64,000 bases of DNA from Methanolobus zinderi (GTDB lineage: Archaea > Halobacteriota > Methanosarcinia > Methanosarcinales > Methanosarcinaceae): NCBI RefSeq assembly GCF_013388255.1, contig NZ_CP058215.1, forward strand, positions 2,223,332 through 2,287,331, read 5' to 3'. The notes below the pieces were generated by a model. It did not search any database, was not told where the DNA came from, and saw nothing but the letters and a program-made list of their open reading frames with translations. Positions 47,866 to 58,491 of the stretch are shown here, in pieces (position 1 is the stretch's first letter; each line of letters begins with the position of its first letter). Position numbers and translations under genes: made by a program.

Positions 47866-48235
47866 TGTTTCTCGCGTCCCTTCTTATTTATAAAGTAATT
47901 TTTATATAATATGCCTCTGGGAGAGGAACAACAATGCCACCTACAAAAAAAGATGCAAGTGACATTGTGTGTTATGTTTCCTTTAACACCGTGAGGTAAA
48001 TTATACAAATGACTTTTAGCTTAATAATGCTTTTTCAGACTCCATCTGGTAACAAAAAACATGAAAATTTACAAAGAAAGAATAGAGATGATAATTATAC
48101 AAAAGGATACACATCAACATCGAATATAGATATGAATCATATATGATAACATGTCTGGATACAAAGATTGTTTGACAAAAGTTGTATATTATGAATCCTA
48201 TTATAGCAGATAGTCCAGAACAAGAGGTGTGAAAA
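47866..48235. other. 370-base AT-rich divergent spacer between nrd operon and radB
   Basis: Divergent TATA boxes serve the nrd operon (minus, near 47882-47910) and plus-strand transcription (near 47901). A 21-codon plus-strand ORF occupies 47934-47999. A TATA-like TTGTATATTATG near 48181-48192 serves radB. Nothing else is recognised between 48000 and 48170, which is AT-rich. Confidence 0.45.
47934..47999 (+). CDS. Possible 21-residue microprotein or leader peptide
   Basis: ATG 47934 to TAA 47999, with GAGAGGAAC about 6 bases upstream and a plus-strand TATA-like TATATAAT about 27-30 bases before the ATG. The product begins MPPTKKDASD and has one cysteine. It could be a microprotein, a leader peptide or chance. 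Confidence 0.25.
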   Translation: MPPTKKDASDIVCYVSFNTVR

Positions 48236-48904
48236 ATAAGCAAACAGCTATCATCCGGCAGCCAGTCAATAGACAGACTCCTTGACGGAGGATTTGAAAA
48301 CGGTATCGTAACACAGATATTCGGCGAGGCAGGCAGCGGTAAGACCAATCTGTGTATGCAGCTTGCAGTGGAGTGTGTCAGGAGCGGCAAGAAGGTCATC
48401 TACATTGACACGGAAGCCATCTCACCCCAGAGGTTCAAACAGATTGCCGGGGAGAATGCAAAGGAGATAGCTAGAGGAATCATTATCTTTGAGCCCACCA
48501 GTTTCGAAGAACAATACGCCTCGGTCAAGGAAATAGAGAAACTGGTTTCTGACAGGATAGGTCTTATAGTGGTGGATTCTGCCACAGCTTTCTATAGATT
48601 TGAGCTTGATCAGGACGAATCAAGTATCAGATCAAGAAGGGAGCTTTCCAACCAGATAGGTTTTTTGCACGGTGTCGCACGTAAATACAAACTGGCTGTC
48701 GTGATAACAAACCAGGTCTACAGCGACGTGGTATCAGGTAAACTTAAACCCATAGGTGGCAGTGGTATAGAACATATATCCAAGACTATCATGCAACTGG
48801 AAAAAACAGGAGAGGGTACAAGACGTGCCAGACTCTGGAAACACCGCTCGATCCCCGAAGGCAAAACCGTTGATTTCAGGATCACAAACAAAGGCATCAG
48901 GTAA
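48236..48904 (+). CDS. radB: DNA repair and recombination protein RadB, apparent ATA start
   Basis: RadB is a euryarchaeal RadA/Rad51 paralogue that assists homologous recombination. The 222-residue protein has Walker A GEAGSGKT (residues 30-37), Walker B LIVVDSATAFYR and the conserved end RARLWKHRSIPEG. The frame is closed by TGA at 48230-48232, and the first in-frame ATG (48356), GTG or TTG lies only after Walker A. ATA at 48236 sits 6 bases behind a strong AGAGGTG (48223-48229) and gives SKQLSSGSQSIDRLL, the expected RadB N-terminus. I therefore annotate from ATA. A sequencing error (ATG to ATA) or a mutated start are alternatives. A TATA box lies near 48181-48192. Confidence 0.9.
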   Translation: MSKQLSSGSQSIDRLLDGGFENGIVTQIFGEAGSGKTNLCMQLAVECVRSGKKVIYIDTEAISPQRFKQIAGENAKEIARGIIIFEPTSFEEQYASVKEIEKLVSDRIGLIVVDSATAFYRFELDQDESSIRSRRELSNQIGFLHGVARKYKLAVVITNQVYSDVVSGKLKPIGGSGIEHISKTIMQLEKTGEGTRRARLWKHRSIPEGKTVDFRITNKGIR

Positions 48905-57387: not shown

Positions 57388-58491
57388 ATTAGCGACATAC
57401 CATATAAAAGTGACTTTGTCAGGAGCGCACCATACTGGTTGCGCCGTGCAGGCGTCGTAAGCTGGCTCCTCCTTGGGATCTTTCTCGCTGCAAGCACCAT
57501 ACTGAGTATTGTTGCAACAGTGAGCGGAATAATTGTCCCTCTGCTCGTGGCGGTAGTTATAGGGATTGTTTTCAGACCGCTTGTAGACATACTGGAGCAA
57601 CAGCATGTTAATCGCAACACTGGCACGGTACTGACGATGCTTTTCATATTAGTGGGTATTGTCATCCTTTTGATCATCCTGGTAAGAGGTTTTGTTTATC
57701 AGGGAGCAGAGATAGTAACCCAGATACAGGCAGGATGGACAGGCCTTCAAGCCTGGTTGATGCAGTTTGAGATAGACGAAGGGATATTAGAGTCTATCAG
57801 CGTCACGGTCCATACTGCCATACCTGCACTTGGCCAGGGAATCGTAGGACTTCTGACCAATACCTTTTCAGGTATTGTGACATTCCTGATAGGAGCTTAT
57901 TTCAGTATTTTCATCCTCTTTTTCATCCTGCGGGACGGACCTGAAATAGATCTGTGGATGTCAAGGCAATTAAACTTAAAACCCGAAACCGGAGCAGCTA
58001 TCATTGCTGACACAAGCCGTTCAATACGCCTCTATTTCCGGGGCACTGCTATTACTGCAGCAATAACCGCGATCGTGGTTGCAATTCCCCTAATCTACCT
58101 CAATGTCCCCCTGGTGAGCTCAATTCTGATCCTTTACTTCTTTACTTCATTTATACCATACATAGGAGCATTCATTGGTGGGGCTTTTGCTGTTATCATT
58201 GCCTTTGGTTCAGGAGGACCCGAAGCGGCACTGATAATTGCGGTGGCAGTTACCATATCCAATGGAGCTCTGCAGAATGCAATAAATTCCTGGGTCCTTG
58301 GAGCAACCCTCAAAATGCACCCGTTGGCCGTTTTTCTTGTCACCATCGCAGCCGGCATTGTGGGAGGAGTACTCGCCATGGTACTGGCCGTGCCGTTGAC
58401 TGCAGTCGTTGTACAGACAGTACACCGCCTGAAAGAGGAAGGGGTTTTTGTTGAACCATTGAACTCTACACATGGAGGAAATATTGAATGA
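57388..58491 (+). CDS. AI-2E family permease, apparent ATT start
   Basis: A 367-residue membrane protein of the AI-2E/PerM family, with about eight hydrophobic segments and the family signatures SPLxxA-like ending regions: FFILRDGPEIDLWM, YLNVPLVSSILILYF and FIPYIGAFIGGAFA. Function of archaeal members is unknown. No in-frame ATG or GTG is available at the N-terminus. ATT 57388 lies 6 bases behind GGGAGG and gives the N-terminus SDIPYKSDFVRSAPYW. The only conventional alternative is TTG 57439, which has no ribosome binding site and would start immediately before the first helix. The stop overlaps the maturase ATG (ATGA). Confidence 0.85.
   Translation: MSDIPYKSDFVRSAPYWLRRAGVVSWLLLGIFLAASTILSIVATVSGIIVPLLVAVVIGIVFRPLVDILEQQHVNRNTGTVLTMLFILVGIVILLIILVRGFVYQGAEIVTQIQAGWTGLQAWLMQFEIDEGILESISVTVHTAIPALGQGIVGLLTNTFSGIVTFLIGAYFSIFILFFILRDGPEIDLWMSRQLNLKPETGAAIIADTSRSIRLYFRGTAITAAITAIVVAIPLIYLNVPLVSSILILYFFTSFIPYIGAFIGGAFAVIIAFGSGGPEAALIIAVAVTISNGALQNAINSWVLGATLKMHPLAVFLVTIAAGIVGGVLAMVLAVPLTAVVVQTVHRLKEEGVFVEPLNSTHGGNIE

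Follow-up and report, generated by a model that had tools for sequence, protein, structure and literature searches.

Bacteria are already known to use a conserved non-AUG start codon as a brake. The infC gene, which encodes the initiation factor IF3, is read from AUU or AUC and repressed by IF3, a proven control device in which the non-AUG codon both limits and regulates output (PMC5472188). In Streptomyces, the GUC start of sigR is also repressed by IF3, as tested by mutation, and the extended Shine-Dalgarno sequence (SD) of the gene (AGGAGGTG) is thought to compensate for the GUC (PMC5472188). For Archaea, a review of translation initiation names AUG, GUG and UUG starts, and a text search of it for AUA, near-cognate and non-AUG returned nothing (PMC7531240). 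More generally, a survey of 61,358 ancestral AUG starts in 36 groups of prokaryotic genomes lists one change to AUU and none to AUA (PMC5622118). In the literature that we searched (subscription papers and database annotations being outside its scope), we found no report of non-AUG starts for archaeal radB, rfcS or aIF1A.

The radB gene considered here lies in a window of 64,000 nucleotides of the Methanolobus zinderi genome, a complete chromosome of 2.70 Mb in one contig. The open reading frame is RadB by its profile match (TIGR02237, 260.1 bits vs. a cut-off of 172.4; residues 13–222 on profile 1–209/210), and the solved RadB 2cvf can be aligned over residues 5–221 of the product. Translated from the ATA at 48236, the protein reads ISKQLSSGSQSIDRLLDGGFENGIVTQIFGEAGSGKTNLCMQLA... 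and has an intact Walker A motif; it shares its family, its N-terminus and this motif with the known RadB proteins (TIGR02237; Haloferax HVO_2383, 2cvf), but outgroup RadB genes, unlike those of the Methanosarcinaceae, start with ATG or GTG. The features of the locus are as follows:

48185..48192, + strand: TATA-like element TATATTAT, predicted radB promoter (from sequence)
48191..48232, + strand: short frame running from ATG to TGA (MNPIIADSPEQEV) ahead of radB and in phase with it; not conserved, and shares bases with the TATA-like element
48223..48229, + strand: Shine-Dalgarno sequence AGAGGTG (GAGGTG at 48224–48229), pairing with the 16S 3' end (from sequence)
48230..48232, + strand: in-frame TGA closing the radB frame upstream (from sequence)
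48236..48238, + strand: ATA start codon of radB (80/80 ATA at the same column in the family)
48236..48904, + strand: radB coding sequence, 222 aa plus TAA (TIGR02237, 2cvf alignment, dN/dS 0.06–0.08)
48323..48346, + strand: Walker A motif GEAGSGKT (from sequence)
48356..48358, + strand: first in-frame conventional start, an ATG at codon 41, which would delete Walker A (from sequence)

The initial annotation had described a frame shut upstream by the TGA at 48230–48232, devoid of any in-frame ATG, GTG or TTG before 48356 (i.e., behind Walker A), and an AGAGGTG separated by six bases from the ATA; all of this is confirmed in the sequence of the window. The 3' end of the 16S rRNA of the same genome (ATCACCTCCT, also given as GGATCACCTCCT) matches the SD hexamer. 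Because the ATG at 48356 would delete Walker A, it cannot yield a working RadB, while the in-frame stop found 0–1 codons before the ATA, in the window and in many relatives, leaves no possible conventional start upstream, so that no ATG, GTG or TTG is able to serve as the start of this gene. TATA-like 5-mers recur in the radB leaders of relatives at about -50..-45 and -38..-33; with the promoter spacing of 19–22 nt reported for Methanolobus psychrophilus (PMC5378194), the 5' end of the radB RNA would fall about 20–25 nt before the ATA.

Our query was matched in 111/111 genomes of the family Methanosarcinaceae, and the radB loci read come from Methanolobus, Methanococcoides, Methanosarcina and Methanohalophilus as well as from further genera. 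Each of the 80 distinct Methanosarcinaceae radB genes (at least 64% identity) has ATA at the start column, which bears out the start codon proposed in the initial annotation, while 12 internal isoleucine columns of the same 80 genes show a mixture of ATA, ATT and ATC, with ATA reaching 78% at most; the start codon is thus conserved between species beyond expectation. A comparison of close relatives had been suggested there as a check, and it finds ATA kept and ATG in none of the Methanosarcinaceae radB genes read; resequencing, suggested as well, is unnecessary because ATA is kept through a whole archaeal family. Among more divergent genes, that of locus L143 again starts with ATA, two from Methanohalophilus (L145, L146) have the ATA one codon further upstream, and six genomes of a reduced-genome genus (L137–L142), probably Methanimicrococcus, have ATC, not ATG, in the corresponding position, preceded by an SD of the same kind. 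The SD itself is strong and at working distance in every family locus counted: a hexamer precedes the ATA by 5–7 nt in 107/107 loci (duplicates included), 95 of which have exactly GAGGTG, the variants being GGGGTG and GGAGTG.

Beyond the family, the haloarchaeal outgroup has GTG at exactly the ATA column, several other distant archaeal lineages have ATG at or adjoining it, and the other families of the order mostly show a conventional start nearby. In Methanoperedenaceae and close kin (L168–L179, L081, L082), 10 loci have ATA at the likely radB start, three have ATT and one has ATG; as a GTG also stands in frame nine bases before that codon in most Methanoperedenaceae loci, a non-AUG start is ambiguous there and the case is suggestive only. 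Read from these alignments, the radB ATA is fixed at least through the Methanosarcinaceae and perhaps older than the family. It is therefore a property of the clade and not an oddity of a single genome, a point that the initial annotation had missed, and its fixation is exceptional, since an AUG-to-AUA change is not listed among the 61,358 starts mentioned above. Separately, the RadB of genome G027 (L143:1589-2557) has an in-frame insertion of ~100 residues, rich in Asn, Lys and Asp, placed after the Walker A helix and before the strand that follows; we rejected an intein as its identity, for this stretch does not have the look of one.

These comparisons demonstrate, at the level of sequence, an AUA start behind a near-perfect SD that is kept by selection. 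The explanation that we favour, and regard as probable, is a true initiation at AUA by Met-tRNAi with the help of the strong SD, the codon being kept against AUG and likely throttling RadB. The GAGGTG SD would position the 30S subunit so that Met-tRNAi (anticodon CAU) accepts AUA despite the mismatch at the third position, and the first residue of RadB would be Met. Slow initiation at AUA would then hold RadB, the mediator loading RadA, at a low amount, and selection against AUG would keep AUA, most likely as a throttle on that amount. The low output, raised in the initial annotation as weak or regulated translation, is assumed from the behaviour of such codons in bacteria, and radB might be regulated by the factors of start-codon fidelity in the way that IF3 acts on infC. 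The dose of RadB may matter, because in Haloferax RadB is a recombination mediator that loads RadA and its loss resembles the loss of RadA (PMC7776575). A dedicated AUA initiator tRNA was rejected, given that a search of 89% of the genome (2.4 of 2.7 Mb) turned up no tRNA with a UAU anticodon. Likewise, no conserved leader structure or regulatory hairpin was found at the radB start (MFE z about +0.4), so that the codon by itself would have to account for any regulation.

Compared with the bacterial systems, radB shares with infC a conserved non-AUG codon of the AUH type needing the initiator tRNA, but the product of infC is itself a fidelity factor whereas RadB is a recombination mediator. Like sigR, it is a gene with no role in translation that has a conserved non-canonical start; it differs in being archaeal, in using AUA and in presumably depending on aIF1, aIF1A and aIF2 instead of IF3. 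Autoregulation of the infC type, in which the product is itself an initiation factor, has its possible counterpart not in RadB but in aIF1A, which has a CTG start and would be the closer parallel to infC in the same genome.

To look beyond radB, we surveyed 2.4 of the 2.7 Mb (89%) for an SD followed by a near-cognate codon, with eight or more codons free of any conventional start. In this single-genome screen, AUH codons behind SDs were not enriched over other codons; hence the case rests on conservation, and we restricted ourselves to candidates that relatives allowed us to check. Several hits (e.g., 823977, a sensor kinase, and 280228) were dropped since they appear to lie in the interior of long or broken genes. 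The conservation of four further genes was examined by locus or by pattern. The gene for aIF1A (G000:C1:1428576, - strand, L325; identified by NF003085 and TIGR00523) has a CTG start behind GAGGTATTAAT. This CTG is found in 25/25 Methanolobus genes (L325; L326–L348, L352), while internal leucine columns vary, and a pattern search recovered the arrangement across the family, mostly with CTG and sometimes with TTG; Methanosarcina often has two or three aIF1A paralogues with the same start arrangement, and in two further families of the order, three loci have CTG behind (A)GAGGTGTTAA(A/C). The gene rfcS (G000:C1:502675, + strand; NF001679), encoding the small subunit of replication factor C, has an ATT start behind GGAGG. 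In 97 pattern-matched genomes of the family, the codon is ATT, ATA or ATC in 90 and ATG in seven (six Methanohalophilus and G014), and a third family of the order has ATT or ATA. Because ATG stands at the same codon in these seven genomes, the AUN codon is most likely the rfcS start throughout the family, the upstream frames having been read in the M. zinderi genome (G000) only. Weaker cases are the gene for a bifunctional hexulose-6-phosphate synthase (G000:C1:366826, + strand; ATC, with ATC or ATA in 15 genomes) and queC (G000:C1:1999149, - strand; ATC, with ATC or ATT in four close relatives).

As far as these alignments go, the ATA of radB is one of a small conserved set of non-AUG starts, in which at least two other core genes, aIF1A (CTG) and rfcS (AUH), keep odd starts. 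Gene finders limited to ATG, GTG and TTG will call a shortened RadB that begins after its ATPase motif, and they will also get aIF1A and RfcS wrong. For Methanosarcina, the public protein records of RfcS and aIF1A presumably already begin at these residues, in which case annotators may have accepted the non-AUG codons without comment.

The composition of this set raises the possibility, which we advance tentatively, that the non-AUG starts are a small group of genes under control by start-codon stringency, as infC is by IF3. This idea extends the favoured explanation rather than opposing it: aIF1A, started at CUG, would keep its own level steady, while radB (AUA) and rfcS (AUH) would be read more as stringency drops. 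It agrees with the invariance of the aIF1A CTG in Methanolobus next to varying leucine columns and with its persistence throughout the family and in further families of the order. Moreover, aIF1, aIF1A and aIF2 select the archaeal start codon (PMC7531240; PMC6412873), the aIF1 of Sulfolobus disfavours non-canonical codons (PMC6237735), and the same logic has been proven in bacteria for infC and sigR (PMC5472188). However, the codon discriminator reported is aIF1 rather than aIF1A, and rfcS has ATG in six Methanohalophilus and one other genome. In its fullest form, as a stringency regulon of the Methanosarcinales in which aIF1A would autoregulate like IF3 and genes of DNA replication and repair would be wired to the same signal by the AUA of radB and the AUH of rfcS, the proposal is a little more doubtful still. 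An AUA fixed family-wide and a CUG fixed at the start of an initiation-factor gene would offer clear natural cases for the study of archaeal start-codon judgement, and they bear on whether this judgement by archaeal ribosomes serves control.

The main rival, which we hold to be rather unlikely, is neutral tolerance, i.e., that in this clade AUH behind a strong SD starts about as well as AUG, the codon drifting with no regulatory meaning. At face value, the interchange of ATT, ATA and ATC between genera in rfcS, along with ATC/ATA in the hexulose-6-phosphate synthase gene and ATC/ATT in queC of close relatives, is what such drift would produce. Yet it is weakened by the fact that ATG, one transition away, is never reached in 80 radB genes whose synonymous sites are near saturation, and nearly all other genes have ATG, GTG or TTG near their expected start.

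A different start for radB, whether at the GTG within GAGGTG, by readthrough from the short frame ahead of the gene, or at an ATG or GTG further downstream, is very improbable. The window does have an in-frame ATG (48191) before the TGA, but this codon is missing in most relatives, or its frame soon runs into a stop; similarly, the GTG of GAGGTG stands in frame 9 nt before the ATA in some relatives, but there it belongs to the SD itself, and in the window and many relatives it is either followed directly by a stop or out of frame. As for a start behind Walker A, codons 2–40, from the ATA to the first ATG, have a dN/dS of about 0.08 between Methanolobus species, compared with 0.06 for the rest of radB (both values being rough, with synonymous sites near saturation). 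This stretch is under purifying selection and therefore translated, which excludes such a start, and the relatives' loci together with dN/dS led us to reject all three variants. Finally, although a single base separates ATA from ATG, a sequencing error or A-to-I RNA editing restoring AUG was rejected as having practically no chance of being correct, for the identical ATA recurs in dozens of independent assemblies and the ATC or ATT of relatives is not convertible to AUG by A-to-I. For radB, error and editing are thus excluded or very unlikely, as are readthrough from upstream and a start further downstream.

Some further genes of the same chromosome have an SD before a non-AUG codon and no nearby conventional start, their identities being judged by the look of the sequence. 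With ATT, these are a DHH/TrkA-like gene (G000:C1:118891, + strand) and an AbrB/PhoU-like regulator (G000:C1:1162240, + strand); with GTC, a helix-turn-helix regulator (G000:C1:1977092, + strand); with ATC, a PHP gene (G000:C1:619685, - strand) and a LarA-like gene (G000:C1:458888, - strand). Within the window, a permease-like gene of 367 codons at 57388 (+ strand), which looks like a member of the AI-2E transporter family, has an in-frame ATT six bases behind a GGAGG, and a conventional start is absent for 17 codons.
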